Below are positions 14,768 through 45,516 of a stretch of 64,000 bases of DNA, piece after piece. The position numbers and the translations under genes were made by a program. The notes under the pieces were generated by a model that was not told the DNA's origin, did no database searches, and saw only the letters and a list, made by a program, of their open reading frames with translations. Numbering within the stretch: position 1 is the first letter of the stretch; the number at the start of each line of letters is the position of its first letter. Source of the DNA: Margaritifera margaritifera (Eukaryota; Mollusca; Bivalvia; Unionida; Margaritiferidae); contig JAQPZY010001621.1 in NCBI GenBank assembly GCA_029931535.1, positions 1,488,001 to 1,552,000 of the forward strand. Direction: 5' to 3'.

Positions 14768-15450
14768 AATGAAGACAATGTATTGGGGTGCAAATGTTGC
14801 GGATACATCGTATACTCAGAGCGAGAGTGCTATGACTACGATTACTACTGCAGATGTAAGCAGTATTCTTCTTCCAGAAGAGGATGACGGATGACTTCAA
14901 TTTAGCTTTGGCTGGTTTCCTGTCCTCTACGCAAGAATTTTTGCCTGCAACGGTAGTACTACCTTCACCTTCTACTCTATCGCTACCATTGGTGGATAAT
15001 TTCAGAATGAAACAAAAGGAAGAATTGGAGAGTTTTCTGAAAGGACAGAAAGAAGCAGAAGAAGCATTTGTTCAACAACAGCAAGAAGAAGAAAAACGAA
15101 AGCGTGAAGAAGAAGAAGAAGAGAAGAAGAAAACTTTGAATTGTGAATGGCAGAAGGAAAGGAGTGAACACAAAACGGTAAGTTTGTTACAAGCCATTTT
15201 GGCAGAGTTAAAGCATCTGAGACAAAAATGTATCAGACTTCTTTAGCTCAACCCAAGAGAAATAGACCATCATGATCCAAGACTTCTAACAACCGTCAAA
15301 TCACTACATCCACTCTCACCGCCACAGATATTCCAGCCCCAGAAGCAGAAGTTACTACTACTACCAAAGCAGCGTCAGTGACAGCAGGAGGAGTAGGAGT
15401 TAAAGCTGATGATGTCAAGAACCTAAGTTTTTTTTGTTTTTTGTTTTTTG
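14768..15450 (+). pseudogene. coiled-coil MYWG-family gene, outer-element copy
   Basis: ATG 14768 begins a peptide containing MYWGANVADT, stopped by TGA at 14891-14893. The homologous frame then continues from 14884 for 120 residues with an acidic/proline-serine start, a Glu/Lys-rich coiled coil (about residues 40-90) and a leucine-rich AILAELKHLRQK segment, ending at TAG 15244. The paralogue at 16540-17131 has the same layout and a further basic tail, whose remains are visible here to about 15410. The gene is followed by a degenerate histone-type stem-loop at 15471. Function is unknown; the coiled coil suggests an oligomeric structural or scaffold role. At least two disabling changes are visible. 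Confidence 0.6.
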
Positions 15451-15470
15451 TGATTAAATAAAACGGCAAT

Positions 15471-15510
15471 GGTCTTTTTTAGGGCCACCTATATATCTTA
15501 CAAAAGAGAT
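15471..15510 (+). terminator. degenerate histone-type 3' stem-loop (outer copy)
   Basis: GGTCTTTTTTAGGGCC (15471-15486) can still pair as six base pairs with G-U wobbles. It is followed by ACCT and a purine-rich CAAAAGAGAT at 15501-15510. It corresponds to the intact signal at 17169 after the paralogous gene. Confidence 0.65.
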
Positions 15511-15673
15511 ACTACTCAATGATTGCCAAATCAAGTAAAGCTTAAATCCCTTCCCATGATATCACGTGTGAGTGTGTTTAAGTATCTTATCCATACTGCA
15601 AGAAAACAAATCAAGGCAAAGAGATACTTACGTTTCTTTTTCTTTGGCATATTCTCTTTGAATAAGAATCACA

Positions 15674-15763
15674 ATGAAATTTCATAACACATCACAAAAG
15701 TCAATTTTCTTCTTTCTTTCCTTCACTGCCTGTCTCTATTTCTTAATGTATTCGTTGGTATGG
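15674..15763 (+). other. hydrophobic short frame, outer element
   Basis: An ATG-started frame encodes a Phe/Leu-rich, signal-peptide-like stretch (SIFFFLSFTACLYFLM) up to the inner-element insertion. The duplicated region of the inner element has an analogous short frame at 17364 (also hydrophobic, stopped after about 21 codons). Whether either is translated is unknown. Confidence 0.3.
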
Positions 15764-15769
15764 ATTCTT

Positions 15770-16049
15770 AGTAGTTGTATGTGGGTATTGGGGTACTGGT
15801 GGGCCTCTCTGGGTACCAACGGGAATTTAGCATTGTGGGGCACTCTGGGTACCAACGGGAATTTAGCATTGTGGGGCACTTGGGATACCAACGGGAATTT
15901 AAAATGGCGGCGGCAGTCTGGGTAACAACGGGAATTTAGCATTGGGGGGCACTTGAGGTACCAACGGAAAAAGAAAAAACAGAGGGTATATAAGCAATGA
16001 TGGAAAAAATTAATCTTTTCTTGAAAAATGGGTGGCCCTGAAAAGGGCC
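15770..16049. repeat. left TIR of the inner element
   Basis: Contains about five tandem 36-bp units, each with GGTACCAACGGGAATTTAGC, then AGAGGGTATATAAGC, and ends inward exactly at a histone-type stem-loop on the minus strand. Confidence 0.9.
16014..16049 (-). terminator. histone-type 3' stem-loop, minus strand
   Basis: Minus-strand GGCCCTTTTCAGGGCC (16049-16034), then ACCCA (16033-16029), then CAAGAAAAGA (16023-16014). This is a perfect match to the metazoan histone stem-loop plus downstream element. It lies in the TIR and serves the leftward gene at 16073-16291. Confidence 0.85.
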
Positions 16050-16069
16050 GTTGTTTTTTTTTCTTTGGT

Positions 16070-16302
16070 TTAACATATACATCTCCTGGAGGGTTGTCTT
16101 CTTTTTCGGAGACTTCTACGAACTTCCGGACCGTACATCAAGACACGCTTTAAACATCCTTGTCGTTCAATATAGATGCGACGTTTCCAGATGGCGGTCT
16201 CTGTGATTTTAGTAATAGAACATGAGGCTTTTACATACATGGGGAATGCTGGGTTAAACAACATCCCCGAGATGATAGTCGATGATTCCACACTTGTCTA
16301 CA
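16070..16302 (-). pseudogene. small basic protein gene next to left TIR
   Basis: The minus-strand frame is open from 16302 to TAA 16072-16070 (ending 21 bp before the stem-loop). Its last 25 residues are strongly basic (EVRRSLRKRRQPSRRCIC). There is no ATG at the start of the open stretch. A poly-A run at about 16303-16312, with open sequence in another frame just upstream (KKDVDKCGIIDYH), points to a frameshift near the 5' end. A divergent TATATATA near 16369 could serve this gene. The basic C-terminus suggests DNA or RNA binding. I see no core-histone signature despite the histone-like 3' end. Family unknown. Confidence 0.5.
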
Positions 16303-16450
16303 TCTTTTTTTTTTCTTGGAGTGGTCTTGGAGAATAAAACCGGTGAAGCTCTACGAGACAAGCGGTCGTATATATACCTTATGAGTGGATTGAAATGGAT
16401 CGAAATTAACTACCAATCCAAACACGCGTTAGAAGCGGGTCGGTTTTTCT

Positions 16451-16496
16451 TCCAATGGGAAGAGAGTATGGGTGTGACGTCATTTGGGGTATAAAG
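16451..16496 (+). promoter_or_regulatory. CCAAT-CRE-TATA promoter of coiled-coil gene
   Basis: CCAAT (TCCAATGGG, about 16451), a perfect CRE TGACGTCA (16475-16482) and TATA (GTATAAAG, 16489-16496) lie in order about 44-90 bp before the ATG. This is a complete compact RNA polymerase II promoter of early-viral style, duplicated in decayed form near 14600-14740. Confidence 0.7.
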
Positions 16497-16539
16497 ACAT
16501 CACAGCGTTCGTAGGGATTTAACTTTTTGGACAGCCTAA

Positions 16540-17131
16540 ATGGAGACTACCAAGACTAGTATGTATTGGGGTGAGCCTGCAACGAATGGTGTGTTGAACT
16601 TCCAACCGGAAGATTTTAATTTAGATTTTCTGTCTCAAGAATCTGAGCCTGAAATCACTACGACTGCTGCTGCTGTACCACTTCCCTCTTTGCTGCCTGC
16701 CCTGGATGATTTTAAAAAGAAGCAACAAGAAGAAATTAAATTTTTTTTTACAGCGACAGAGAGAAGCGGAAGAAGTGTTTCTTCAACAAGAAGAGGAAAG
16801 GAGAAAACGAGAAGAAGAAATAAGAAAGTTAGAAGAGGAGAAGAGTGAAGCACAGAAAGAAGAGAGCGAGGAAGATAAAACGGTGAGTCTACTACTCCAA
16901 GACATTTTACGTGAGTTAAAGCATCTAAGAAAGTTATATGAATATTCTTTAACTCAACCCAAGAGAAAAAGACCATCACGAGCCAAACATACGAAACCCA
17001 TCACTACTGAGATGCTACCACCACCACCACCACCATTCACTACTACTACCACCACCAAAGCAGCAGCAGGAATTGGACTGGGTCGTGGAAAAGGATTACG
17101 ACAGTTGAAGCTCATCATGTCAACTCCATAA
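16540..17131 (+). pseudogene. coiled-coil MYWG-family gene, inner copy (frameshifted)
   Basis: ATG 16540 starts a protein with MYWGEPATNG, an acidic stretch (EDFNLDFLSQESEPE) and a Ser/Pro/Ala-rich segment. At the run of T near 16741 the frame breaks; the homologous frame continues from 16706 as a Glu/Arg/Lys coiled coil, a leucine segment (LQDILRELKHLRKLYEYSL), a poly-proline stretch and a Gly/Arg/Lys tail (GIGLGRGKGLRQLK), ending at TAA 17129. A one-base slip in the T tract would explain the break. The gene has its own CCAAT/CRE/TATA promoter and an intact histone-type signal 38 bp after the stop. Its paralogue is at 14768. The function is unknown; it may be structural. Confidence 0.65.
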
Positions 17132-17168
17132 GTTTGTTTTAACAAAACAAACAAACAAACACCCCAAC

Positions 17169-17207
17169 GGTCCTTTTTAGGGCCACCCAGATCTCTAGAA
17201 AAGATGA
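17169..17207 (+). terminator. histone-type 3' stem-loop
   Basis: GGTCCTTTTTAGGGCC (17169-17184), ACCCA (17185-17189), then a purine-rich TAGAAAAGATGA (17196-17207). Confidence 0.85.
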
Positions 17208-17397
17208 TCATTTCAATTTTGCCAAAAACTCAAGTAAAACTTTAAATCCCATTCCTTGGTTTTTTGTGTAAGAGTGCGTGAGTGCGTGCATCCATACTCT
17301 AAAATAACAACACAAAGACACTTACTTTTTTCCATTCTGTTCTATTCTCATTTTTTTTTTACAATGAACATCACACCACACTCCAAAAAAAAGTTCA

Positions 17398-17742
17398 TTG
17401 TTCACTGTCTGCTGTCTCTCTTGTTCTAACTTTGGCGACGCCCAGAAAAATTACTTGCGATCTTACTTGAGCCTGTTTGAAGCCACAGGACAGTTAGGCA
17501 CCAACACCAGCCACGGTATTTCGTACGACGATTATGCAGGAGGGTATGCGTTGTGGGGATTTGATTTCACTCCTGACCAAGGCAGCGACGAAGGACATTT
17601 CCACCCTATAAAATCAGGCCCACTTCGTGTGGAACTTCAGTTTAAAGATCCTCTACCCGACACGGTGGACGTCGTATTGTATGCAGAATTTGATAATACT
17701 CTAGAGATCAACAGTTTGAGAGAAGCGATTCTAGACTATTAG
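17398..17742 (+). pseudogene. capsid-like protein, C-terminal remnant
   Basis: The frame lacks an ATG, and family-like sequence begins near 17450 (NYLRSYLSLFEATG), continues with DDYAGGYALWGFDFTPD, and ends VVLYAEFDNTLEINS then a terminal DY before TAG. I recognise this as the C-terminal part of the uncharacterised F54H12.2-like family abundant in invertebrate virus-like elements, inferred to be jelly-roll capsid proteins. Only about 100 of an expected 400 or more residues remain; the N-terminal part was replaced at the junction with the duplicated coiled-coil region. It is followed 15 bp later by the next gene, so the three genes 17398-18865 form a tight same-strand cluster. Confidence 0.6.
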
Positions 17743-17757
17743 AAGAAAAGAAAAAAG

Positions 17758-18315
17758 ATGCAACACGTAGAAGAAGAACCTATGGAGATAGATAATGAAG
17801 AGGGATTTTGTGAAGCACAACAGTCACAAACTATCACGGATGATGACGAAGTCATTCATTCAGAACTTCCAAAAGAAGAAAAAAATACTGTTCCCGAGTT
17901 TGTTGGATTTATTTCTAGATGGCCTGAACAAGAAAAACATTTAGTCTCCTGTTATGCTAAGGAATTGACTGAAAGAATTAACAGCCTGACCCGAGAACAT
18001 TGTCATGGATGTCAAATTGATCATCCCAGTCAGAAACAACACGACCAATGTTTGATGATGACGGGCGAAGAAAAATTGGATGAATATTTGGAAGAGGCCT
18101 GGTCTCAGATCTCGGAAGAAAAGGTGTTGAGACAATGGTATAAAGACTTGCAGGATTCTTTTTCACCTCCACTCACTCCTCTGGAGATCCATCGCATCGA
18201 AGCTCTCATTCAACAGTGTACAGAAACTATCCGCCGTGAATATTCGTGGAATTACTTGACAAATCCATTCAAATTTAAAGTCAAGTGTGAATTGATGACT
18301 TATCATTTCCTGTGA
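17758..18315 (+). CDS. conserved CxGC..DHPSQ protein of virus-like elements
   Basis: The intact frame from ATG 17758 gives 185 residues. An acidic N-terminus (MQHVEEEPMEIDNEEGF) precedes a core with REHCHGCQIDHPSQKQHDQC near residues 79-98, whose Cys/His spacing suggests metal binding, then a Glu/Leu-rich helical region and a C-terminal helix. I recall the same motif in invertebrate genes linked to F54H12.2-like capsid genes, but no function is established to my knowledge. It sits between the capsid remnant (15 bp upstream) and the protease (7 bp downstream), implying virion morphogenesis or regulation. No frame damage is visible, unusual here. Confidence 0.7.
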   Translation: MQHVEEEPMEIDNEEGFCEAQQSQTITDDDEVIHSELPKEEKNTVPEFVGFISRWPEQEKHLVSCYAKELTERINSLTREHCHGCQIDHPSQKQHDQCLMMTGEEKLDEYLEEAWSQISEEKVLRQWYKDLQDSFSPPLTPLEIHRIEALIQQCTETIRREYSWNYLTNPFKFKVKCELMTYHFL

Positions 18316-18322
18316 GAAAACA

Positions 18323-18865
18323 ATGGATACCAGGGAACTTCATTACCTGTTGACTCGCAGTTCCTACACTTCTTCTTGGAATCCTGTGGTGTGTGCTAAA
18401 GATGAACTACCTCATCACAAACCTAAAGACGTTCATGCCTATGTCATCAATACCGACGACAGTCATCGAGCAGGAACCCATTGGGTAGCCGTGTACTTTC
18501 CCAACGATCACAGTGGTGGTGGTGTGGAATATTTTGATTCTTATGGATTACCTCCTTTGGAAGACGACATCATCGACTTTATGAGAAGAAATGCCGTTTC
18601 CACTCGATTCAATAATGCCCGATTACAAGGATCGGATTCAATGGCGTGTGGACAATATTGTGTACATTTTCTTCATCAACGCAGTCTCTGATATTCCTTA
18701 GAACATTTAGTGACTTGTTTTGATAGAGACTATGCTCGAAACGATGCTAAAGTAGAATGATGGTTTTGTGAACGTTATGGTTATCTCTTGTCTTTAGCTC
18801 AGAAACGTAGTGTGCATCAGAATGATGTAGATGTAGAAAAGTGGAAGTTTAGTTTGCCTTCCTAA
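18323..18865 (+). pseudogene. adenain-like cysteine protease (inner element)
   Basis: The ATG at 18323 opens 122 codons with the adenovirus-type protease layout: the His region GTHWVAVYFPND (His near residue 53), the Asp-containing YFDSYGLPP near 72-80, and the Cys motif MACGQYCVHFLHQ near 108-120. The family cleaves capsid precursors during virion maturation. TGA at 18689 cuts the frame just after the Cys helix. In-frame sequence resumes (YSLEHLVTCFDRDYA) to another TGA at 18758, then runs to TAA 18863, so the usual C-terminal tail is present but separated by two stops. A truncated product would still hold His, Asp and Cys. A second, unrelated-looking protease lies at 36120-36560. Confidence 0.8.
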
Positions 18866-19104
18866 CGTTGTCAACCCTGTAAATACGTTCCTGTTTAATA
18901 TCTTGTTGATTGTTAGTTTGAATTTTTATGTTAGAGAAGCTTCTTCTTGTTCATTAAAAAACGTTGATTTTTTTTTTTTAAAATGGTGTTGTGTGTTTTT
19001 TTTTATTGAATTTGAAAAACAAAATGAATAGGCTCTATCTATCTCTTTCTATCGATCTGAAGTCACCACCTCTATCCATTTTCTCACTCTCGATCTGAAC
19101 CCCA
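18866..19104 (+). other. 3' region of the protease cluster
   Basis: ATTAAA at 18953-18958 could be a poly(A) signal for the capsid-protease cluster. No histone-type stem-loop is present, in contrast to the small genes. The rest is T-rich spacer. Confidence 0.35.
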
Positions 19105-19164
19105 TGTTTTCCATCGCGTCCGCGCTTCAAGCATATAAAGCGGTGCGTTGGCCAGTGTAGTCAC
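19105..19164 (+). promoter_or_regulatory. shared promoter module, gene at 20020
   Basis: TGTTTTCCATCGCGTCCGCG then CTT, and TATA CATATAAAG at 19132-19140, followed about 20 bp later by AGTGTAGTCAC (19154-19164), the presumed initiator. The module matches 20936-20970 and 23119-23156. An 804-bp insertion now separates it from its gene. Confidence 0.7.
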
Positions 19165-19968
19165 CCCACGTAAATCAAATGCATAAGGTGGTTACAAGAT
19201 ATAACCATCAGGCCCAAACTGCATAGCGCGGTTACCAAAAATCTGAAACGTTATTAATATTAAGTAGGATAACTAGAACGAAAATCAAAGACTAAGAGAT
19301 AAACCAAATAATCAATATAAGGTGGTTCTAAATCCTGGACCATCAGGCCCAGCTACACAAAGTGGCAACTGTTCAAAAATTTTATTTTTTATTTTTTATT
19401 TTTTTTTTCTTCTCTCTCCCTATCTCTATTCACTAACCTACAAACACAGCCAAATGGTACAAACACAAGCTTCAAAATTGTTATATGTCAAAAATACTTT
19501 CGTCTTTTGGACAAATTATCAAAATTACTAAATATTAAATAATCCTGGATCAGCCGGAGCCAACTGTGACGCAACGACGCAGCCAGCCGACCCTTGCCGC
19601 CTTTTCCTCGCCCTGACAGAGTCAACACAACAAATAAGTAATCCTGTAAACATTGTGGTACTATTCCTATGAACAGGATAATAAACAATCAAATCGTAGA
19701 ATTTAAATACACGCACCCCTCCAGATCGCTCGTTCAATGAATCCCCATAGCGGGGAAATCATGTAGCGATGGAGCGGTGCGAAAATAGCGTCTATATACG
19801 CACCATTCCGTCTAGTGGGCCATAGCTCTGTAACCCACTGGACGATAATAATAAGTGTGCACAGCACACAGTTTAATCCCTCATTGCGTGTTCCGCACGC
19901 AATGGGGGTAAAAAGTCGTACATGCCCGAATGGGCGAACACGACTAAAATCCAATTATCATCATCATC
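19165..19968 (+). mobile_element. structured retroposon-like insertion 1
   Basis: Flanked by the 11-bp direct repeat AGTGTAGTCAC (19154-19164 and 19969-19979), with a simple-repeat tail ATTATCATCATCATC at its right end. The first part holds two imperfect direct repeats (about 19184-19240 and 19318-19372, sharing ACCATCAGGCCCA). The last about 400 bp is homologous to the end of insertion 2 and rich in hairpins. There is no long ORF. Variable tails and short duplications suggest target-primed retroposition. Confidence 0.6.
19641..19945 (+). ncRNA. structured RNA-like region, copy 1
   Basis: Successive hairpins: ATCCTGT/ACAGGAT (19641/19673); a CTCCA..TGGAG arm enclosing CCCC ATAG CGGGG; GGTGCG/CGCACC; AGTGGG/CCCACT; GTGTGC ACA GCACAC; a stem in CATTGCGTGTTCCGCACGCAATG (named by positions 19882-19904); and AGTCGT ACAT GCCC GAAT GGGC GAAC ACGACT (19914-19945). 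The same order recurs in copy 2 with compensating base changes. Whether it acts as RNA or DNA is unknown. Confidence 0.6.
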
Positions 19969-20019
19969 AGTGTAGTCACTCTCGTTGACTCGTCAAGATC
20001 TCAACAACACTTCAAGAAG

Positions 20020-20424
20020 ATGGCAGCATCCAAGATAAGCAAACTGAACGAAGCTAAGGTGAACATGCAGAGGGTGAAGCATCATTTGATGGAGACCAAC
20101 CCTGAGAGAAAGACAATGAACTTCCTACAAATGGCTCATGATCTGGTGGAAGAAGTCATGAGGGAAGAAATCATCAGGGACAGAACGGAATGGGAGGAGA
20201 GACAAAGACTGCAGCAACAGCAGCAACAGCAAAGACAACAACAATAACAACAACAACAACTCTTGCAGTCCATGAAACTACCCAACGGAGAAGTCAGCTG
20301 TAAGATAGACTGCGATGAGTTTGCCTTCTCTTTTACCAGAAAGAGAGCTTGTCTTAAAGCCGTGAGACCCGTGGCTAAACGTGGCCGCCCTGCTGCGGCT
20401 GCCGCTACTGCTACTAGAAGTTAA
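20020..20424 (+). pseudogene. small gene with Q-rich linker and basic tail
   Basis: ATG 20020 starts 134 codons with one in-frame TAA at 20245-20247 inside a CAA/CAG run; a single base change would account for it. The N-terminal 75 residues look helical and charged (DLVEEVMREEIIRDRTEWEE), followed by a polyglutamine linker, then a segment (NGEVSCKIDCDEFAF) and a Lys/Arg/Ala-rich tail (VAKRGRPAAAAA). The stop at 20422 is followed 24 bp later by a perfect histone-type signal. The basic tail suggests nucleic-acid binding; family unknown. Its promoter lies 0.9 kb away because of insertion 1. Confidence 0.6.
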
Positions 20425-20448
20425 ACAATATAACTTCTCAACCCCAAC

Positions 20449-20484
20449 GGTCCTTTTCAGGGCCACCCATTAATCAAGAAAAGA
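20449..20484 (+). terminator. histone-type 3' stem-loop
   Basis: GGTCCTTTTCAGGGCC (20449-20464), ACCCA (20465-20469), and CAAGAAAAGA (20475-20484). Confidence 0.9.
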
Positions 20485-20519
20485 TTAATTTTCATATCAT
20501 TGCCTTATATATGTGTTTG

Positions 20520-20790
20520 TATGTGTGTGTCTTTGTCTTTACCCACTCCAAACAAAAAATTTCCTTTCCCAAAAAAATAAAGTTTGTATAGAGTGTGTGG
20601 TGTGTGTTTGATAAAAAAAAAATAAATGATGTGGTGTGTTTGATAAAAAATGTTAAAAAATGGATGGTATGTTTGTGGTGTGTGTTTGATTAAAAAATAA
20701 AAAATAAAAATAAAAAAGGTGGTGTGTTTGTGTTTGATAAAAAATAAAAAAGTTTTGTATGTAGGGTGTGTGTATCTGTTTTTTTTATCA
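20520..20790. repeat. GT-rich imperfect repeat spacer
   Basis: Irregular alternation of GTGTGTTTGATAAAAAA-type blocks; a similar shorter spacer occurs at 22919-23105. No gene. Confidence 0.7.
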
Positions 20791-20886
20791 AAAGTAGTTT
20801 CTTTTAGGTCCGCGCACTGGGTCTGTGTTTTTGGTAAGGGGTGATGGAGTGCAAAATCCGCGAAGCCTAGAATTACGTCATAGGGA

Positions 20887-20992
20887 TGACGTCAGACGCG
20901 GGATAGTGTGAGTAATGTTTTTTTAGGTGTAAGGGATGTTTTCCTTCACGTCCGCGCTTAAAGTATATTAAAACAACGCCTTCCCTAGTCGA
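20887..20992 (+). promoter_or_regulatory. CRE plus shared TATA module, gene at 22566
   Basis: A perfect CRE TGACGTCA at 20887-20894, the module TTCCTTCACGTCCGCGCTT (20941-20959), TATA GTATATTA (20963-20970) and the presumed initiator CTAGTCGA (20985-20992). A 1.5-kb insertion follows directly. Confidence 0.7.
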
Positions 20993-21699
20993 ACAAGGGG
21001 AAAATATCTCAACCTAGCAACGCTTCCACTCCAAAAACGGCACCCCAGATTAGGGAAAAAGAAAAAGAGCCGGAACGGATAATAGTTGAAGCCAGCAAAC
21101 CCCAACCACCCCTTCAGGCACCAAAAAGTCAAAGACAACAACAACAACAACTGAAGCAACAGCAGCAACAACAGAAGCAACAACAACCAGAACAACATCA
21201 ACAATATCAGGAATACAAACATGAATATATCCGAAAGGGGCCCAGGAGCAAAAAAGATCTTATCCACGAAGCGGACCATTGGCTCATAAATCAATATGAA
21301 CCACACCATATTGTCCACCTTATGGAAGACTCAACAGGCCATTCAGCCCAAAGTTGCTACTTTGACTTTAGCACGGCCATAGATGTAGCCAAACAACTAA
21401 AATTAGGAGGAAAAATTTCGAAAAAACAGTTGCCTCAAATTCAAAATTCCAAAGAAAACATCAAAAAGATGGGACAAAGATTTGCAGAATGCCCCATCCC
21501 ACTGGCAATTTTGTTGGTAAACTGTACTATTGATATGTTTAAGATATCGGTTTCCCCTAATCAAGCTCTGGGCACCATTTTCTCAGCTAGTGGTGGCAGA
21601 CTTGATCGATCCTCCGGAAAAATGCAAGAACAGAGTAAGACGCAAGTTCGAGCCACCGGAAGATCTGAGGCCATACCTGCGACCGCCGGAAGACCTTGA
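20989..21699 (+). pseudogene. unidentified Q-rich ORF within insertion 2
   Basis: The frame is open from 20989 to TGA 21697, but the first ATG is at 21322, so either the start codon was lost or the 5' part is missing. The encoded protein has a Lys/Glu/Pro-rich start, a Gln-rich tract (about residues 47-75), then a more ordered region containing HEADHWLINQYEPHHIVHLM and SGKMQEQSKTQVRATG-like C-terminal sequence, possibly after a frameshift. I see no reverse-transcriptase or nuclease motif. If insertion 2 is a retroposon, this may be an accessory ORF or captured host sequence; no stem-loop follows it. Confidence 0.4.
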
Positions 21700-22536
21700 A
21701 TAGTCCTTGTATGGACGGGCCAAATTGCCTATCGGTTTTCACTTTGGCTTGAAAACCTTTTTGAAAGATAACTAAAATATCAACACAAATATGATCAATA
21801 ATCCACCGAATCCAATGAGAACTTGACCATACCTGATTAAGATCACAAAAATCATTTAAAGGGGTACTCTAACCTCTATTTATTTATTTATTCATCATTT
21901 TCGGAAAATACATGTACATTTTGTACACGAAATTCAAAATTGATAGGGAAATAGGAAAATTTTATTTAACTGTGAAAATGTGACCATAATTACAACATGT
22001 GGCTAACACACAATTGGTAATAGGGACAGCCCGACTTAGTTAACTGGGCAGAATTTGATCATGTACGTTCCTGGCGTTAAAGGTTTTTCTGTCACACTTC
22101 GCGCCTTCGCTTGCCTGGTCCGTGCCGCCTTTTCCACTCCAGACTGCTTACTTCGAACAATTCAATCTACAACGTGCGCTACAACGCGCACACATATACC
22201 TGTAAACATTGTGGTTCTAGTCCTATGTACAGGTATATCAACACACCTTACGATTTCGTGCGTTCAATGATCCCTCTCGGGGGTAACCATGCATTGACTG
22301 TAGGGTGTGTTAAATGTACTACCTCTCCAATAGCGCGCATTCATTTTAACCGCTTCGAGCGGAATCATGCTGCGCTGGAGGGGTGTACCTAAATACTGAA
22401 ATAAGAGTCAGGTGGTTGCAATCTGTCAACACACCTGACCACTTAATCCCCCTAAGCGTGCTTTGCACGCTGTGGGGGTAAAAAGTCGTACATGCCCGAA
22501 TGGGCGAACACGACTAAAATCCAAGCACAACAACAA
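20993..22536 (+). mobile_element. structured retroposon-like insertion 2
   Basis: Flanked by the 8-bp repeat CTAGTCGA (20985-20992 and 22537-22544), with a simple tail AAGCACAACAACAA. The 5' half carries a Gln-rich open frame; the 3' about 400 bp (22110-22520) is homologous to the end of insertion 1. Both insertions lie the same distance after a TATA box, at the presumed initiator. Confidence 0.6.
22174..22515 (+). ncRNA. structured RNA-like region, copy 2
   Basis: Hairpins in order: GTGCGC/GCGCAC (22174-22191); ATACCTGT/ACAGGTAT (22196/22229); a long arm ACACACC..GGTGTGT; CTCCA..TGGAG enclosing AGCGC/GCGCT and CCGCT TCG AGCGG; GTCAGGTG/CACCTGAC; CCCCC..GGGGG with AGCGTGC/GCACGCT (22448-22478); and AGTCGT..ACGACT (22484-22515), identical to copy 1 in its last hairpin. 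Paired positions differ from copy 1 while pairing is kept, which argues for selection on structure. Confidence 0.6.
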
Positions 22537-22565
22537 CTAGTCGAGCTACCCATTTATTCAACAGA

Positions 22566-22880
22566 ATGAACAAAACTGAAACAGTGAGACAGGCCCGAGT
22601 GTATCTAGAGGTGGCGTGGCACCTTCTACACGACCTGGAAAAGAGGGAAAAGGAGGAAAGGGGGAGGATTATCTCCATCAGACCCCACCTGATGATGGAG
22701 GAAAAAGAAAATTGGGATCCTGAAGCGGACCATCCTCCGTTTGCTTTGAAAAAACAACAAGCGCTGCATGAGTGCAGAAACATGGAGGGGAAGCTGACCC
22801 GCTTGTCGGGCAAAACCAGGGAGGTGCCCGCACCTCTAGATGAACTTTTAAAAAAAACAAACGGCCCTATTCAGGGCCAC
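22566..22880 (+). pseudogene. small helical charged protein gene
   Basis: ATG 22566 starts about 98 codons of mostly helical, charged sequence (ARVYLEVAWHLLHDLEKREK; later HECRNMEGKLTRLSGKTRE) before the histone-type signal at 22863. The frame currently reads through the stem-loop to 23037; a TAA exists at 22850 in the neighbouring frame, so a one-base slip in the A-rich run at 22851-22858 probably removed the natural stop. It resembles the proteins at 20020 and 23238 only in being a short helical ORF with the same promoter type and 3' signal. Function unknown. Confidence 0.55.
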
Positions 22881-22898
22881 CCATTACTCAAGAAAAGA
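22863..22898 (+). terminator. histone-type 3' stem-loop
   Basis: GGCCCTATTCAGGGCC (22863-22878; loop ATTC), ACCCA (22879-22883), and CAAGAAAAGA (22889-22898). Confidence 0.88.
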
Positions 22899-23118
22899 TT
22901 AATTTTCATAATTGCCATAGGTGTGTGTATGTTTGTGTGTTTGTATAGAGTGTGTTTGTTTTTTTTTCCCACTCCAAAAACAAAATTAGCCATTCCCTGG
23001 CATGTATTTGTAGAGTGTGTTTGTATAGAGTGTGCATGATAAAAAAGGAAAAAAAAGGATGGTGTGGTGTGTGTTTGTTTGTATGTTTGGTAAAAAAAAT
23101 TATGTTTTTGGAAAAAGG

Positions 23119-23175
23119 GATGTTTTCCTTCACGTCCGCGCTTAGAGGATATAAAGCGGCGTCTTCCGCAGTCGC
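23119..23175 (+). promoter_or_regulatory. shared promoter module, gene at 23238
   Basis: GATGTTTTCCTTCACGTCCG then CGCTT, TATA GATATAAAG (23148-23156), and CAGTCGC near 23171 as probable initiator. This is the only one of the three modules not interrupted by an insertion, so it shows the ancestral spacing (about 67 bp to the ATG). Confidence 0.7.
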
Positions 23176-23237
23176 GCCATTCACACTTCAGCTGAAGAAT
23201 GAATAGCATATAATTATTGCATTAAGCCTGGGATATC

Positions 23238-23795
23238 ATGGTGGGTGTGGAGTCTTTGGTGGAAAGGTTGGAGTGTTGGTGGAGATATCCTACCACCAAG
23301 CCATACGTCACCAGCCAACTAGCGGCTCTCACTTCAGCGAGGAGGCTGGTGAAGGATGTCTTGGTGGAGGAATCGCAAAAGACTTCTTCGGCTCCTTGTC
23401 GTGTGGGTTTTATCAAGTCGGCCCTCGACTTACTGGATGGGGTGGAATACTTCCTACACCAAGTGAAGGAAGATTGTTGGATCTATCCACCCGCCAGTAG
23501 CGTCAAGCGTGAAGAGATAAATCTTCACACGACAAAATTATTATTAAAAAAAGTTTTGGAGCAAGAAGTAGCCCACATTAAGATCTTGTGGGCTCTCGAA
23601 AGAAGTAAGAAAGAGCAAGCCAGGAAAGAAAAGGAATTTCAACGCCTGAATTTAAACTGGATGAAAATCCAGGATAAGTTCAGACGAATGGAACATCCCG
23701 ACTGGCTGCCCAATCCACCACCACCACTCCAGAAGAAGAAAAAATCTCACACCACCTTCCTAGGCTTCTTCACTCAATGTTGGAGGAAAAAGTAA
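23238..23795 (+). CDS. 185-aa helical protein, intact stem-loop gene
   Basis: The intact frame from ATG 23238 encodes 185 residues. The N-terminal half has alternating hydrophobic and charged helices (TSQLAALTSARRLVKDVLVE; KSALDLLDGVEYFLHQVKED), the centre a Lys/Glu coiled coil (ALERSKKEQARKEKEFQRLN), and the C-terminus is proline-rich then basic (PNPPPPLQKKKK; TQCWRKK). No known domain is recognised. The stop is 12 bp before a perfect histone-type signal that lies in the right TIR. It has an uninterrupted shared promoter 67-90 bp upstream. This is the best-preserved member of the stem-loop gene set and the one to test experimentally. Confidence 0.7.
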   Translation: MVGVESLVERLECWWRYPTTKPYVTSQLAALTSARRLVKDVLVEESQKTSSAPCRVGFIKSALDLLDGVEYFLHQVKEDCWIYPPASSVKREEINLHTTKLLLKKVLEQEVAHIKILWALERSKKEQARKEKEFQRLNLNWMKIQDKFRRMEHPDWLPNPPPPLQKKKKSHTTFLGFFTQCWRKK

Positions 23796-23807
23796 TCCTC
23801 CTCCAAT

Positions 23808-23843
23808 GGCCCTTTTCAGGGCCACCCATTTTTCAAGAAAAGA
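23808..23843 (+). terminator. histone-type 3' stem-loop in right TIR
   Basis: GGCCCTTTTCAGGGCC (23808-23823), ACCCA (23824-23828), and CAAGAAAAGA (23834-23843). It is identical to the left-TIR copy on the other strand. Confidence 0.92.
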
Positions 23844-24087
23844 TTAATTTTTTCCATCATTGCTTATATACCCTCTGTTTTTTCTTTTTCCTTTGGTACT
23901 CCAAGTGCCCCCCAATGCTAAATTCCCGTTGGTACCCAGACTGCCGCCGCCATGTTAAATTCCCGTTGGTACCCCAAGTGCCCCACAATGCTAAATTCCC
24001 GTTGGTACCCAGAGTGCCCCACAATGCTAAATTCCCGTTGGTACCCAGAGAGGCCCACCAGTACCCCAATACCCACATACAACTACT
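23808..24087. repeat. right TIR of the inner element
   Basis: Inverted copy of 15770-16049 with about six mismatches. The outer part holds the 36-bp tandem units; the innermost bases are the histone-type stem-loop. Confidence 0.9.
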
Positions 24088-24093
24088 ATTCTT

Positions 24094-24567: not shown

Positions 24568-27500
24568 ATGAAAAGATCACGCTATTCCTACGAGCAGCCA
24601 GAAGAAGAAGTCAAGAGATGACGACTTTCGGTGTCGCCTCATACACTAAGTGAAGTGTTAGCACAAGTGCATGCCAGTGATTTCGAAGATGACACGAGTG
24701 AGACTGAACACCCTCTACCACAAGACCAAGAGAGTCAAGATCCACGAAAAAAGAAAGTCGTTCAGTAGCTCTAAAAGATTATATTTTACATTCGAGAGAC
24801 GCAGAAAGTAACTTCCAGAAAATTTAGAACCACTGCTTACACATACACAGTGAAATTTATAGAGTTCAAGTCTCAAGAGCCACCAGAAAAAGCAGCAGAT
24901 TTAATTACAGATTTGTGGGATTCATTGTTAGAGACACTGAAACGACAATGCCAAGCTAAATAGGACAATCGTTTGAGACTCTGTGTCAATCATAGTTTGA
25001 AGTCTCCTGTCTGGATCGAGTTTAGTTTACCGGCAGAGTTAACATCTTACGAAGTCATTGACAAAATTCAACACGTCCAACAATCCAATGACGAGTTTAA
25101 CATCATCGATTGAAAAACCACTCTTCACATGACCCACGTTTCACCTCCTTGAGGTAGCGGACCACGCAGAAAAGTGTTATTGGTGGACAAAATCCGCAGT
25201 ACCAAAACAAGTCTTGTCTAAATTGACAACTCACAAGATCAGATGTATTTAGCCTGTACCGTCTTCGCTCCTCGATATACGCTGAAAGTATATCATCAGA
25301 ACGTGCGTGGAGCTCTCATTTTTCGAGGACCAGATTTCCCAGATGGAAAATACATTCATGTGTATCATCATCAACAGCATTTCGATGATATTACAAGTAT
25401 CACAGGATTTATTGGATACAATTACTATTGCGAGAAATGTGATCAAGGATTTTGCAGTCGGGACCAACACATTCACTGTGGAGAGAAAAGCCGGGACTGC
25501 TTAGCGTCCAAACCATCGATTACAGAAGGAAAAGAACGAATTCATTGCTCGAATTGTAAACGAACCTTTGTCAGTACCACTTGTTATGAACAACATCACA
25601 TAAAACAAGTTCAACAACAGAAAAGTACTTGCGAATTATTGAGATTGTGCTCCACTTGTGGACATCTTATTCGAACCAATAACCCAAAGGCACACGTTTG
25701 TCCAGGAAAGAAAAGATGCCGTTTTTGTGACCAAATCGTGGACTTTGAACATCAGTGCTACATTGAAAATATGAGAATGAACTGGTGAAAGACTTAAAAG
25801 AAGACCAGCACAAGAACAAAAAGAAACATGTGGATTGTATCTTCTTTGACTTTGTATGAATGCAAGAGACTGGCATTCACATCCCGTATTTCTGCGTAGC
25901 TCATCGTGCTTGTGAGAATTGTATACAAAAACCTATATTTTTTCACTGCCCCAATTCAGATTCCAGGAGGACGAGAAAAAATCTTAGACCCTACAGACGA
26001 CACTTGGAGCGAAGAGGGCATCCAGCGTTACGGGGACTGCCATCGACATGCTACAGTTATGGCTCACAATTTCTCAGGATACGACGGACAATTTCTTTTG
26101 AAATATAATTCATAACAAGGCACCGAATGTCCCATAGTCACCATGAACGGAGCCAAATTCATCTACGTGAAAGTGGGGCAAGTACAGTTTAAACTTTAAA
26201 GATTCCATGTGTTATTTAGCCATGCCTTTGAGTAGAATGCCTAAAACGTTTGGAAGGACAGAAATGACCAAAGGTTATTTTCCACACTTTTTCAATACCG
26301 AAGATAATCAACATTTTGTGCCCCCCCCCCCCATTTGCCTCACGTTCACTGTTATGACCCCAATGGGATGCACACAGAACAACGAGAAGCATTGTAAACA
26401 TGGTACCAAACTCACTCTTTAAACCCGTTTGACTTTCAAGAAGAAATGTTGAATATTGCCGATCTGATGTGGACATTTTACGCCGTTATTGTGGAAAATT
26501 TCGACAATTATTTCTGGATCACGGAAGTATCGATCCTTTGAAGGAAGCTACTACCTTCGCTAAAACGTATGGCTAAGTCTATCGAAAGAAGTTCATGCCT
26601 GAGAACAAATTAGCCATCACACCCCTTCAATCCTATTTCACGGTCAGCCGTCGATATTCCGCCAAAGCTTTGAGCTGGCTGCATTACTTATGTGAAAATG
26701 AAGACAAATGGATACAACATGCTAGAAACGTGAAAATTGAAAGTATTTCTGCGGATGGTTGGGATTTAGAAAACCCGCAGACGGTGTACGAATTCAAGGG
26801 ATGTTTATTTCATGGATGCCCTACTTGTTTTCCTCAACGAAACCTGAAAAATCCTTACTCAGAGTTTACCATGGAATAGTTGTACGAGCAAACATACCAA
26901 CGACGCCTGAGGTTTGAAAGTCAAGGATACCAAGTGATAGAAATGTGGGAGCACGATTACGATCGACGTTTCAAAACCGATCCAGAATTTACACGCATTA
27001 CTGAAAGTTACGACGTGGTAGACATAGAACGTTTGAATCCACGCTACAGTTTGTTTGGAGGACGAACTAATGCGACACGCTTGCTGTACGACGTAGAAGA
27101 ATCTCAAGGAGAAGAAATCAAATACATCGACGTGTGTTCCTTGTATCCTTGGGTGTGCAAATATCAGCAATTTCCTACCGGTCACCCTGAAATGTTGACA
27201 GAACACATTGAGGTGGAACACATTCGTTAATACGAAGGGTTGATCAAATGCAAAGTCTTACCTCCAACCCACTTGTACCATTCTGTCTTACCACATCATT
27301 GCCAAGGAAAACTGATGTTTCCTTTACGACGTACGTGTGCTGAAACATGTAATCAAGACCAACCTTGTTGCCACAAATATGAAGAACGCGCTTTGACAGG
27401 AACGTGGGTGAGTATCGAATTGTTTCATGCTCTGGATTGTGGATATCGCTTGTTAAAAATATATGAAATTTGGCACTTTCCTACCACATAACAATACTGT

Positions 27501-28400
27501 AAGGACGACGACTCGAGTCCAGGAATTTTCTCAGAATACGTCAATGAAATTATCAAACTGAAACAAGAAGCTAGTGGCTATCCATCTTCGTGTCATACTC
27601 CAGAAGACAAATAGACAGTCAAAGAACGGTAGCGATCCTTAAAAGGCATTTCTTTTGAACACGTGGAAAAGAACGAAGGAAGACAATTGTTTGCCATGAT
27701 AAATTGTTTGTGGTGAAAATTGGCGCGACGTCCAATATTATCCAATATTGGAATACTTGGCAGATCCAAGTCGCTACTTTCAACTGTTGGATGACAAAGG
27801 AAAACTCATGAAACACGCGGAGATCGTCCGTGAAGATTTGATCTTGGTCAATTACAATTGACAGAATTTGCACCCCCTCCCCGACGAGTTTGGAAATGTC
27901 ACCATTGCAGCGTACGAAACAGCCAATGCCCGTTCAAAGTTGTATGATGCCATGGAACTTTTAGGAGATCGAGTCCTTTACTTTGACACGGACAGTTGTA
28001 ATTACATTCATCCGCCTGGCAGTCATCACTCAATAATTCGAAGGGGACCATTTAGGTGCATGGACGGACGAGCATCCAGAAGACACTATTGCGAGTTTTG
28101 CTAGAGGTGGCCCCAAAAATGTAATGGATACCAATACAGAGAACGACAGGGAGAAATTCATACCAAATGCAAAGTCAAAGGGCTGACACTCAACTATTGA
28201 TCGAGTCAAGTAGTCAATTTGTATGTCTTGAAAAAAGCTTTACAGTCCGGGAAGGATCAAAACTTTCGCGTGAAAACATTAGATGCACACAAAATTGTAT
28301 GTTTACAAAACTACCAAATCGTCAGTCGACCTATAGAAAAAGTCCATCAGATTGTGTACCAGAAACCAGACCATAACACTTTACCTTACGGAGACGCTGA
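24568..28400 (+). pseudogene. family-B DNA polymerase A (protein-primed type), broken
   Basis: From ATG 24568 the plus strand encodes a large polymerase interrupted by many stops and several frame changes. Recognisable parts in order: an N-terminal region with paired Cys/His motifs (YYCEKCDQGFCSRDQHIHC near 25423; CSTCGHLIRTN), an exonuclease-like segment at 25860-26110 (AHNFSGYDGQFLLKY), a long palm region (FKGCLFHGCPTCFP near 26785; LFGGRTNATRLLYDV near 27050; CKVLPPTHLYHSVLP near 27248), and the catalytic DTDS in LYFDTDSCNYIHPPG near 27976. Several stops are CGA/CAG/CAA to TGA/TAG/TAA changes. The type is common in invertebrate and fish virus-like elements. It cannot give a full-length product. 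A different polymerase lies at 31375-33843. Confidence 0.8.
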
Positions 28401-31374: not shown

Positions 31375-33843
31375 ATCACCATTCTGCTATCTTCGCTGAA
31401 ATATTCATTTATGGGGGATATTCAGAAAAATTAAATAATTCTTTCGAAGCAAACATGTCGTCGTAGATATCAGTAGTCTCAATTTTATAGAACAATAAAT
31501 CTGTATCGATAAAAAGCAATTTGGCCCTAGTACCATATTTAGATTTAATGTGTCCGAAGTGAAAATTATACATAAGTAACTTTGAAAGATCGAGCACATT
31601 GAAACCAACATAAATTGACTTATTAAAAACAATATTTGTTTTCTTTCTATGAATTACTACTAAGTTTGCATCGAATATTTTCATAGCGACACATCCTCGA
31701 TCACCAACCATTTTTTCACGTCGTTCTTTATTTCTACATTAACTCGTTTTCCAATATTTTCTATTGTTTTACCAAAGACTGAATTGTTCATGAGCTTAAA
31801 GAAATCTTTTTCAAAGTCAATTGTAGTCATTTTTCTTTTATCTGTATTAAAAATCGATATAAGTTTTCAACCAGGCTTGTTGTTTAAATTTTATTACACG
31901 ATGAATTCTAATGAGCTGCATACCCAAATCGAGATATTGCCTTAGATTTCTGTAGTGAATGACATACCGCGTATTATCCATCACATTTGGAATGAGTTTT
32001 GGAACATTACCAATTTCGAATTTTTTCTTGACCGATTTTGTGTGTTCTATTAACACGGAGTTGTCCACGGTGATATGTTCTTGCGCGAGTGGATAATCAT
32101 TATGCAAGTGATGAATTCCAGGTGGATACTCAAGATCGACTTCACGAATATATCCAGTATCATCATCGCTCTGTAATAGTTCTTCTGTAAAATGTTCTGG
32201 ATTCATCCAAGAAAAGTCACTTACTGGTAGTTTTGTGACATTGCCCTATCATAAAAATTATGAGTGTCTAAGTGGATAATGTACTTGGATGGTTTTTAGG
32301 ATCATAATTTTCTGGATTTTTATGGTTATTAGCTACAGAATGTTTTTTTTATAGAAATCACTGAAATTCCACCTCGAATTCGACGTTCAATCATAAATTT
32401 GTATATCTATGTCAGTGATGAGTTCGAAACATTTTAAGCGCAGCATTCCAACCTAATCCAGGACAGGAGTAATACCAAGCAGGATCTAAACTGTTATAGG
32501 TTATGCAGGTATCTCTAAAATTTTCAAAAACATCAGCTAGTAACAACACATCCATTTTCAGATACAAATTAACATTAATTCACGAAGATATTTAATATTC
32601 ATTTCATTCCAGACATTGCAGGCATGTTCGTAATCCTCATGAGAAATATCTTCATTGTCAAGTTGGTTATAAAAATGTTCTTTTTGTAGCAGACTAGTTT
32701 CATTAAATCCAGAAATTGTCTGAGGACATAAATTTGTTTCTGTCATCTGGTGTATAAATCATTTTTCCTGAAGGGACATTACTGATATGTACTACTTCAT
32801 CAAGTAAGCTACTAATGAAATGGTCTACACAATAGCACCACGATATAATTGGATGGGTTTGCTAAAGTTTTCGTTGACACAGATCAATTTGTACGAATAA
32901 CAACAGGGAACATGGTCCTGGCATTCTTGTGTAAAGAACCTTTTGGATTATCTTGGACAACTTCATTGTTTTCAATAGGAACAATAAGAGCTTCAAAATC
33001 AATATAAATAATAAAAGGCACTTTCATTTTGTGATTTACTTTATCAAACTTGGTAATATTTTTTTTGGTCTTTTTGGGGCATTACAGCTCTTGTAGTATT
33101 TATACAATCTTGGCCATGTTGTACAAGTAAGTCTTTGCGTTTAAAACCATAAAGACATTTTCTGCAGTAAAACAGTTTGACTTTACATTTGTATTATTGT
33201 CCATTCATGATCTCGCTAAAGTTTTTAATCCAGTAATAATGACCATCTGAGTTTTCATGGTGCATATAAAGCAGATCCAAATTTTTTTCACAAGATATTT
33301 ATGATAAATGCAAAGGATAATTTTTACCATCATCCACACCAAAAACGTTGACTGAAATATTATTAATACCGCCAACATAACCATTTGTTGTCATCATTTT
33401 TAACATTGACACAACTTTGACTATTTTTTTTTATTTTGGCTGGCAATTCTCAACAAGATTTTCCACGAAGCGGATTGTATTTGGAATGTTCAAGACACAT
33501 ATTGAAATGCTTGATAGAATCCAACCAGAACCTTAAGGGGAAAATGTCATTATTTTGTTTTCAAGTATTTCAAATATTTCTTTGACATTAACATATTTGA
33601 TGTTTGCTAATAAAATGCGCTTCCATTTCCTTTTCATTGATCTGTTTTTAAAAAGGTTCTAATTCCAATTGAAAACTTTATGCTGCAATTTAAAGGCAAT
33701 TCAGCTGACAAAATATTTGTTATTGCATGTTCAGCAAACCTAATCGCTGTATCAAGCGTTGGTATGCCAAGTTCCATCACAAATGTTTTGTCATAGTCAC
33801 TAAAAGCTTGCTGACGTTGAGTGAATCTCTTGATTGCGCTCAT
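31375..33843 (-). pseudogene. family-B DNA polymerase C, canonical Polinton type, broken
   Basis: On the minus strand homologous sequence begins near 33843, passes a His/Cys-rich segment at about 33430-33500 (LEHSKYNPLRGKS), the blocks HAQ-like DISHEDYEHACNVWNEMN (32610-32690) and LEYPPGIHHLHNDYPLA (32090-32140), the motif-B region DFFKLMNNSVFGKTIENI near 31770-31820, and the catalytic site LLFIDTDLLFYKIET near 31490, where the usual Ser of DTDS is Leu. Multiple stops and frame changes occur throughout, and the preserved length (about 820 codons) is short for the family. It is unlike polymerase A in sequence and orientation. Protein-primed replication is the family role. Confidence 0.8.
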
Positions 33844-34172
33844 AATATATAACTATATCTCTTGTCTATTTACAGCCGCCAAAAGAACATGCAGTTTGAT
33901 GCAAGAGACGCTGTGGCGAAATAACATGTCATTACTGTAACACATATTAATTCGACCAAGTTCATTCATTAGTTTTCGCTCCTTGTCCGTCAGCAAAACC
34001 CGCGTCTTAGGATTATTTAACGGTTTTGCCACAGTGAGATTTAACTAAAATTTCGCATGAGGATTTCTGTAGAGGGTCACGATGGTATCAAACAGTATTT
34101 CAGAATGCTCCAAAAAGACGTCTGTAATATATAAGTGTATCTGATATATATAACCTAATTCAACAAAACGAA

Positions 34173-34550
34173 TTGTTAAGAAGTATGTATGACTCTGATG
34201 AAAACGAAGATGACGTTGTCTGCGACTACGATGAGTACACTCAAGTCGAAAATGCGCACCTGCATTACAATACGAGGCCGCAGAAATATACCAGAAAATA
34301 TCACATCAGAAACAAGTTGGCGCGATTTAATCTGTCGCACGAAGAAATGGCACAATTCAACGAGATATTTAACAGATTTATTACGCTAAGCCTGCCAGGA
34401 AGACAGAAATTTATTAAGTTCGATTACGTATTCAAGAAAATATTCCTGCTCATAGGTCTGCCTGACAAAAAAAAAAAAAAAAAAGTAAAGAAAAAAACAA
34501 CTGCCATGTACAAACCTGTTGCTAGTAAAAAAAATACTAGCAGAGTATGA
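34173..34550 (+). CDS. small Polinton protein, possibly VLTF3-like C-terminus
   Basis: ATG 34173 opens 125 codons: an acidic start (DSDENEDDVVCDYDEYTQ), then FNLSHEEMAQFNEIFNRF and GRQKFIKFDYVFKKIFLLIG, then a long lysine run (with an 18-A tract) and a basic tail. The helix followed by FxxxxYVxxKxxxLxG recalls the end of viral late transcription factor 3-like proteins, but I would not press this. It is the only plus-strand gene in the minus-strand Polinton block, lying between integrase and polymerase and facing the integrase 3' end. The frame is intact, although the A-tract is slippage-prone. Confidence 0.45.
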   Translation: MLRSMYDSDENEDDVVCDYDEYTQVENAHLHYNTRPQKYTRKYHIRNKLARFNLSHEEMAQFNEIFNRFITLSLPGRQKFIKFDYVFKKIFLLIGLPDKKKKKKVKKKTTAMYKPVASKKNTSRV

Positions 34551-34555
34551 CAGAA

Positions 34556-35560: not shown

Positions 35561-35860
35561 AATTTTGTCGAAGCGGTCTTTTTTTTTCTTTTTTTCTGGA
35601 TGATCTCTGTAGCAAATGACATGCCGCATTGCCTTGGCATCTACTTGGTTATAGGGTTGTTGACCAGGAAGCGGTTGATCATTGGCATCCAGTTGTTTAT
35701 TCAGAGGATTCCACGGACCAGTATACTTATGTCCTGGCAGAGTCCAGTCACCTTTTTGTTTTGAAAGTTTTCCAATAAGTGAATGAAGATCAAAAGCGCC
35801 GTCATATATTTATACGACGTTTACAAACAGAACAGTATCCAATAATTGTATTGCCTTGAT
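35561..35860 (-). pseudogene. parvovirus-type phospholipase A2-like domain remnant
   Basis: Just upstream of the integrase on the minus strand is DLHSLIGKLSKQKGDWTLPG then HKYTGPWNPL and VDAKAMRHVICYRD. This is the Ca-binding YxGPxN and HDxxxY arrangement of the VP1u-type PLA2 domain also found in Polintons and adintoviruses. The catalytic His-Asp pair appears here as His-Val, so the site is degenerate. In the family the domain helps the particle leave endosomal membranes. The frame runs on into basic residues (PEKKKKKRPLRQNY) before TAG. Confidence 0.6.
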
Positions 35861-36119
35861 TACAAATATTGTCATTGCAGGCATGCATGTACATAACGAG
35901 CAAACATAAAATTATGTGTCAAGCATGACAATAGGTTGGGCATTAGCACAACCACCATATGATGTCTTAACAAATCTTGATTTTCTTTTGCTGCAATCTT
36001 ATGACAGAACGTCCGTTTTTAGTTTGAGATAAAGTTTCTTTAAGACTGTCAGTATTCTGTCTGCATGACAAACACCACGAAACTGTCATTATATTTGAGA
36101 TTTACATAAAACACACTTG
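35861..36119 (-). other. degraded spacer in the Polinton block
   Basis: Short open stretches only. A Cys-rich peptide-like stretch (near 35810-35900) is visible but unassigned. Confidence 0.3.
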
Positions 36120-45457: not shown

Positions 45458-45516
45458 GTGAGAAAGCTGTTTCTGTTTCCGACTCCCAGGTGTGTTAATG
45501 ATATAATTTAAATCAT

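Follow-up and report, generated by a model that had tools for sequence, protein, structure and literature searches.

Can the 3' processing signals of replication-dependent histone mRNAs serve genes that encode no histones? To our knowledge, the histone-mRNA pathway is generally thought to be reserved for histones, and the question is raised by a stretch of 64,000 nucleotides (nt) from the bivalve Margaritifera margaritifera (assembly GCA_029931535.1, contig JAQPZY010001621.1, positions 1,488,001 to 1,552,000), hereafter the window, in whose coordinates features are given below. The window contains a Polinton-type element of 8.3 kb (15770-24087), here called the inner element. An earlier note had claimed that five small genes of this element, and a relative of one of them outside it, end in the full metazoan histone signal, namely a 6-bp stem with a 4-nt loop, ACCCA and a downstream element of the kind bound by U7 small nuclear RNA (snRNA). 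Judged by their sequences, the five gene families, designated A to E, are built like replication-dependent histone genes, with a short 3' untranslated region (UTR), the stem-loop, ACCCA and a U7-type purine element, and we consider it very likely that their transcripts are replication-dependent, non-polyadenylated histone-type mRNAs made via the host histone-mRNA pathway.

Histone-type 3' signals behind the genes of the element

All six stem-loop sites named in the earlier note are present, as judged by both a sequence pattern and the Rfam Histone3 covariance model (RF00032, gathering cut-off 34 bits), and they are preceded by the five small genes and by the outer relative, the latter in decayed form (Table 1). 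Four of them score above the cut-off (E 1e-6 to 1e-9), whereas the gene A site at 17169 falls below it and the outer site at 15471 scores at chance level, being recognisable only as a decayed relative. In detail, the full signal claimed for every site needs some correction: the exact downstream element CAAGAAAAGA follows at 16034, 20449, 22863 and 23808, with CTAGAAAAGA in its place at 17169 and a degenerate form at 15471, and ACCCA follows the stem at the five inner sites, with ACCTA and then TTACAAAAGA at the outer one. A weak seventh Histone3 match (16298-16346, minus strand, 18.3 bits) is at chance level. With up to three mismatches allowed, a loose stem pattern matched nine times in the window versus 3.2 expected, three of the matches lying outside the six sites; the strict string of stem, ACCCA and CAAGAAAAGA occurred three times versus 0.00 in 100 shuffles. 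The signals at 16034 (minus) and 23808 (plus) lie inside the terminal inverted repeats and are thus two copies of one sequence in the window copy; they terminate different genes, B and E. The possibility that the former is a mere echo of the repeat without a gene was rejected, gene B having been found with open frames in relatives. The protease gene of the element is without a histone-type end and has an ATTAAA at 18953, about 90 nt beyond the gene.

The signals recur throughout the home genome (2,453,371,941 bases in 1,696 contigs). The strict 35-nt signal has 1,228 copies, versus 0 in the control, and a covariance-model search of the kind proposed in the earlier note found Histone3 matches recurring after non-histone open reading frames (ORFs) of the element genome-wide: all 75 scored matches (the best 75 of 508,685 candidates) exceed the cut-off, with element signals reaching 45.8 bits. 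That these top matches would be histone genes was rejected, since the 30 that were read all align to the inner-element family and none is a histone gene. The small genes A to E belong to elements that bear the presumed capsid gene: for 22 of the best 150 matches of protein E (4,474 candidates), a match of the presumed capsid piece (best 150 of 7,289 candidates) is located on the same strand no more than 12 kb upstream, usually at a distance of about 3.5 kb, and in no case, within the same two sets, downstream or on the other strand. Outward-facing pairs of signals are often separated by 16-24 kb (picked by eye among the first 100 places listed for the strict signal and for the promoter 23-mer described below; shorter and longer distances also occur), an indication that complete elements have the normal size of a Polinton and histone-type ends at both termini; 2 of 19 such pairs contain one of these best 150 capsid matches.

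Conservation of the signal was assessed in gene ends that had not been chosen by structure. Overlapping loci (L026, L029, L061, L082) were removed for the counts on 92 ends and 114 sites, and are still included in those on 122 stems, 60 element loci and, for promoters, 30 gene E loci. A stem of at least 5 bp together with the downstream element was found in 88 of the 92 ends (A 5/5, B 14/14, C 19/19, D 22/25, E 28/29; the four exceptions being three copies of D and one of E), and all six stem pairs are intact in 78. Absence of the motif from related elements, which the note had named as grounds for refutation, is therefore not what these copies present. Among 30 loci chosen by protein E, the window copy included, 25 fit the strict stem pattern 12 nt past the stop codon, and the other five differ by one or two bases by eye, one of them by a loop deletion. 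The stop-to-stem distance is mostly 12-28 nt in B to E and 33-52 nt in A, and in 113 of the 114 sites that had been selected for having both stem and element, AGAAAAGA lies at a distance of 12 nt from the stem.

The compatible variation of paired positions, also claimed previously, is borne out. At the 114 sites, stem pair 4 is C-G in 91, U-A in 22 and U-G in one, and the loop alternates between UUUC and UUUA. In 31 chosen sites (23 distinct) all cells are paired, versus 10-64% in slid versions, and the covariation score of 0.191 (0.138 in shuffles) was reached by none of 500 shuffles. The two subfamilies of gene E, E1 and E2, encode proteins of 38-47% identity; with the E2 copies selected by Histone3 score, differences between the subfamilies amount to 0.52 at third codon positions, 0.03 in ACCCA, 0.10 in the downstream element, 0.19 in the stem-loop and 0.47-0.51 beyond. 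As a separate observation, a motif containing TGCC lies about 20-30 nt past the downstream element both in the element and in many histone genes, and it is better conserved between the E subfamilies than the sequence after it.

The encoded proteins are not histones, in line with the earlier note, for which unrecognised histone genes would have been a refutation. With E values of up to 1 admitted, the histone fold was matched neither by ten window proteins (the outer relative, the two gene A frames, the capsid piece, the second ORF, the protease, part of C, a further ORF, D and E) nor by nine A to E proteins from related loci and P0001, 20 proteins in all, and none of them has a Pfam match over cut-off. 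P0001 is one distant E homologue with 30% identity on a 929-nt JGI contig (alignment A2, best 8,000 candidates scored). A single-sequence protein search for E homologues gave none among 70 candidates, the capsid piece matched six protein fragments beyond the genome, none of which has an informative name or domain, and searches of IMG/VR with the capsid piece, the histone signal, P0001, alignment A3 and PolB gave no matches.

Promoter blocks and the host histone genes

Promoter blocks of host histone type on the element genes are new here and go beyond the earlier note. In the window, the 23-nt promoter block of host H2B, TGTTTTCCATCACGTCCGCGCTT, recurs before genes C, D and E, with 22 of 23 positions identical. 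The exact 23-mer (either W) has 1,862 genome copies, a small part of them in histone clusters, versus 0 when read backwards. It lies upstream of gene E within 1.3 kb in 23 of the 30 protein-chosen loci, in 21 of them within 200 nt, and is absent in seven; shuffles of the E-upstream regions contained it in 0 of 600. A chance origin was rejected on the basis of the shuffles and of the zero control counts for the strict signal and the promoter 23-mer. Gene B has a block like those of host H2A promoters, in which CATTTCAATCC stands before TATAAATG. In the window, CATTTCAATCC alone is not beyond chance (1 versus 0.11 expected, 11 of 100 shuffles); it occurs 20 times in 60 element loci, each time with a TATA box downstream, and ten times in 30 histone loci, six with TATA. 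The motif GTCCGCGC occurs four times in the window versus 0.10 expected. Element loci totalling 197 kb contain it 83 times, in 60 cases with TATA shortly after it, and histone loci totalling 99 kb contain it 31 times, in every case with TATA. The GTCCGC core is, we take it, reminiscent of the site of the vertebrate histone H4 factor HINFP. No histone-type promoter block was recognised for gene A.

The host histone genes provide the standard of comparison. A histone-fold search of the genome (best 150 scored, 30 read) located, among the matches listed, histone clusters on contigs C528, C642 and C308 that repeat about every 8 kb. In the host H3, H4 and H2A genes the 3' end is formed by GGCCCT-TTTT/TTTA-AGGGCC, followed by ACACA and then a GAAAAGA-type element, with the stem 28-35 nt past the stop. 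The H2B end, GGCCCTTTTCAGGGCC followed by TCTCTAG(A/G)AAAGA and TTGCC, is much like that of element gene A, and it has ATACA/ATGCA where the element has ACCCA. By eye, the stem-to-element distance is 12 nt in H3, H4 and H2B and 13 nt in H2A. At least 15 host histone ends in six loci exceed the cut-off, with 34.2-40.6 bits, below the best element signals. The host also has a gene for the stem-loop-binding protein SLBP, represented by two exon-like matches on contig C413 (64.3 and 38.8 bits, cut-off 27). Apart from the clusters, many histone-fold matches, mostly with internal stops, were seen on contigs C1281, C461, C668, C318, C349, C751 and others; they form arrays, often with a spacing of about 1.74 kb, and are perhaps histone-derived satellites.

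Anatomy of the inner element and its surroundings

The inner element represents an abundant Polinton/Maverick-type element in a copy that has undergone internal deletion and has several broken frames. Its ends, AG...CT, are flanked by a 6-bp target duplication, a combination with AG-ended inverted repeats that we take to be a Polinton signature. Comparison of the terminal repeats gave 277 of 291 nt identical, and a separate repeat search gave 285 nt at 98%; the repeat termini in this one copy are AGTAGT...ACTACT. Between the repeats the order is B (minus), A, the presumed capsid C-terminal piece, the second ORF, the protease, C, D and E. The name 'major capsid' for the piece at 17410-17742 is our presumption; it has no Pfam match, and its relatives have open frames of about 450 aa in many of the best 150 candidates. 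The protease assignment is borderline (Peptidase_C5 20.0 bits, E 5.7e-4, cut-off 21.3; adenain chains E 0.02-0.04). Gene D frames in relatives mostly stop 18-22 nt before the stem-loop. The outer gene A relative is probably an older copy.

Table 1. Features of the inner element and its flanks, in window coordinates
Feature	Position	Strand	Remarks
Decayed gene A relative outside element	14884-15246	+	Probably an older copy
Outer gene A relative, decayed stem-loop	15471-15486	+	Histone3 15466-15510, 18.7 bits
Left target-site duplication ATTCTT	15764-15769	.	Identical to 24088-24093
Left terminal inverted repeat	15770-16053	+	Begins AGTAGTTG; inner end contains gene B stem-loop and downstream element
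Gene B downstream element CAAGAAAAGA	16014-16023	-	Exact string
Gene B stem-loop GGCCCT TTTC AGGGCC, then ACCCA	16034-16049	-	Histone3 16009-16054, 44.0 bits
Gene B region	16060-16350	-	Small basic Cys-rich protein; frame unclean here, open in L005 and L013
Gene B block CATTTCAATCC before TATATATA	16387-16397	-	Like host H2A promoters
Gene A	16540-17131	+	Coiled-coil-like; two overlapping frames here, 16540-16848 and 16706-17131
Gene A stem-loop GGTCCT TTTT AGGGCC, ACCCA	17169-17184	+	Histone3 17164-17208, 29.2 bits, E 3e-4, below cut-off
Gene A downstream element CTAGAAAAGA	17195-17204	+	
Presumed major capsid protein, C-terminal piece	17410-17742	+	110 aa, conserved
Second ORF adjoining capsid piece	17758-18315	+	No Pfam match over cut-off
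Adenain-like protease gene	18323-18864	+	In-frame stops here
H2B-type block, gene C	19105-19127	+	TATAAA at 19134
Gene C	20020-20424	+	Gln-rich, basic C-terminus; one in-frame TAA in window copy
Gene C stem-loop GGTCCT TTTC AGGGCC, ACCCA	20449-20464	+	Histone3 20444-20489, 35.5 bits
Gene C downstream element CAAGAAAAGA	20475-20484	+	
H4-type block GTTTCTTTTAGGTCCGCGC	20797-20815	+	Upstream of gene D promoter; no own TATA box
H2B-type block, gene D	20937-20959	+	Apparently displaced from ORF by insertion of about 1.5 kb
Gene D	22566-22850	+	Window-copy frame reads through stem-loop
Gene D stem-loop GGCCCT ATTC AGGGCC, ACCCA	22863-22878	+	Histone3 22858-22903, 39.3 bits
Gene D downstream element CAAGAAAAGA	22889-22898	+	
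H2B-type block, gene E	23121-23143	+	TATAAAG at 23150
Gene E	23238-23795	+	About 180-199 aa in relatives
Right terminal inverted repeat	23804-24087	-	Ends CAACTACT
Gene E stem-loop GGCCCT TTTC AGGGCC, ACCCA	23808-23823	+	Histone3 23803-23848, 42.6 bits
Gene E downstream element CAAGAAAAGA	23834-23843	+	
Right target-site duplication ATTCTT	24088-24093	.	Same letters as left side

No PolB, integrase or ATPase was recognised inside the 8.3-kb window copy. Remains of PolB at 25243-28400 (PF03175 at 26880-27227) follow the right end of the element, and PolB also stands close behind gene E and the repeat in L004/L082 (one locus); its place beside E may be a coincidence of nested insertion or part of the element anatomy. 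Two apparent insertions, 19163-19969 and 20992-22537, separate promoter from ORF in genes C and D. They have apparent duplications, by eye, of about AGTGTAGTCAC and TAGTCGA, and a common 95-nt 3' end (19860-19954, 22430-22524); like insertions precede gene E in several relatives, and they seem to target the transcription start. Farther along, a second Polinton-like remnant (31400-38065, minus) contains a double jelly-roll (DJR)-like capsid piece (PF21738) and a Peptidase_C5-like piece, both below cut-off, and possible integrase and PolB pieces by eye only, with no Pfam match; it has zero Histone3 matches. Retroelement-like ORFs of integrase and polymerase type, by eye, lie at 45062-47060 (minus).

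Alternative explanations and the proposed expression programme

Several observations weigh against histone-type processing of the A to E transcripts. No host U7 snRNA with a 5' end matching the downstream element was identified by Rfam and pattern searches: the former gave sub-threshold matches only (best 65 of 776,085 candidates) and the latter 16 matches versus 10 in the control. The sole hairpin-bearing candidate, L091 (G000:C1214:1523780-1523900; 29.4 bits, cut-off 34), has an Sm site and is without a 5' sequence pairing with GAAAAGA; L092 and L093 were rejected as U7, the hairpin being absent. Broken copies are common in the element family, the window copy included, and gene conversion between the inverted repeats can make the B and E ends alike. 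Of the five covariation measures, two lie within the shuffles (double-change pairs 59/500, pair types 292/500), and the choice of E2 copies by score bears on the subfamily comparison. In the 28 close E1 copies, variation in the stem-loop is similar to that at third codon positions (0.057 vs 0.065), so there is little or no clear constraint in recent copies, and constraint on the signal is clear only between subfamilies. The H2B-type block stands 6 nt from the TATA box in the element versus about 27 nt in host H2B, and the promoter arrangement is thus not identical. Finally, AATAAA occurs within 300 nt after 29 of 122 stems (22.3 in shuffles) and within 60 nt before 21 of them (8.1 in shuffles), the excess before the stems arising partly because the motif overlaps the stop codon in some E copies.

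Some of these points would be accommodated if the signals were relics of capture, an ancestral histone cassette having been taken up and duplicated, with ends that persist unused by copying and gene conversion. Both the promoter block and the 3' end are similar to those of a single host gene type, H2B, the element copies are many and mutually similar, and the weak constraint among close E1 copies and the repeat shared by the B and E ends point in the same direction. However, between subfamilies only the functional signals are conserved while coding and flanking DNA diverge, stem pair 4 changes on both sides, and genes A, C and D, outside the repeats, also retain the signal; moreover, ACCCA in place of the host motifs argues against a recent copy, and we regard such a relic as unlikely. 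It is also improbable that the stem-loop acts only in polyadenylated mRNAs, in their stability, export or translation, with 3' ends at AATAAA sites: the AATAAA counts before and after the stems could be read this way, but the count after the stems is near the shuffle mean, and a U7-type element at a fixed 12-nt spacing would be left without a role. A function of the hairpins as DNA, e.g., in replication or packaging of the element ends, would suit the two hairpins at the inner ends of the terminal inverted repeats; the internal copies behind A, C and D, in sense orientation and with ACCCA and the downstream element, make it very improbable. Equally hard to credit is that A to E are unrecognised, fast-evolving histones, for which the basic tail and a weak Protamine_P2 match of gene C (E 0.056, below cut-off) might speak, given the absence of any histone-fold match among the 20 proteins described above.

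Returning to expression by the histone-mRNA pathway, host S-phase histone transcription factors would switch on the A to E promoters, SLBP and the U7 small nuclear ribonucleoprotein (snRNP) would bind the pre-mRNA, and the cut would fall about 5 nt past the stem. The non-polyadenylated mRNA would be exported, translated and then destroyed together with the histone mRNAs, and the proteins would thus appear during DNA replication. The histone-type promoter blocks on the element genes favour this S-phase reading. From the sequences we infer S-phase transcription, cleavage at the stem, lack of a poly(A) tail, coupling to replication and a benefit to the element as putative features of the system. 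Thus, we propose as probable that the gene block of this element lineage is under the host histone programme at both ends, through promoters and SLBP/U7-type 3' ends, and that its proteins are made in S phase from non-polyadenylated mRNAs, perhaps at the histone locus body.

The element resembles metazoan replication-dependent histone genes in its 6-bp stem, 4-nt U-rich loop, purine element at 12 nt, ACCCA and short 3' UTR, and host histone genes in its H2B-, H4- and H2A-type promoter blocks. Unlike histone genes, it codes for non-histone proteins of a mobile, virus-like kind and has its H2B-type block nearer the TATA box. With Polinton/Maverick elements and adintoviruses it shares the 6-bp duplication, AG...CT ends, inverted repeats, adenain-type protease and presumed capsid, whereas it differs from them in having small genes with promoters and 3' ends of histone type. 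The earlier note knew of no such description for Polintons, and our literature search (titles and abstract openings, with few subscription journals) likewise found no precedent for histone-type 3' ends or promoters on Polintons or on any virus or mobile element. Bracoviruses encode histones and thus likewise link DNA viruses with histones; in them the protein resembles a histone, whereas in the inner element only the regulatory ends of the genes do. The same link and the same difference appear to apply to adomaviruses with their 'Histoid' genes (PMC11071296).

If the proposed programme is correct, a genomic parasite dispenses with polyadenylation and ties the expression of its genes to DNA replication in the host, by a gene-expression strategy with more than 1,000 such signals in one genome. 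The element genes would provide an independent test of what SLBP/U7 processing and histone promoters require, and RNA-seq of poly(A) RNA could miss genes of this kind. Such a strategy would also help to explain how Polintons multiply in replicating cells, e.g., those of the germ line.

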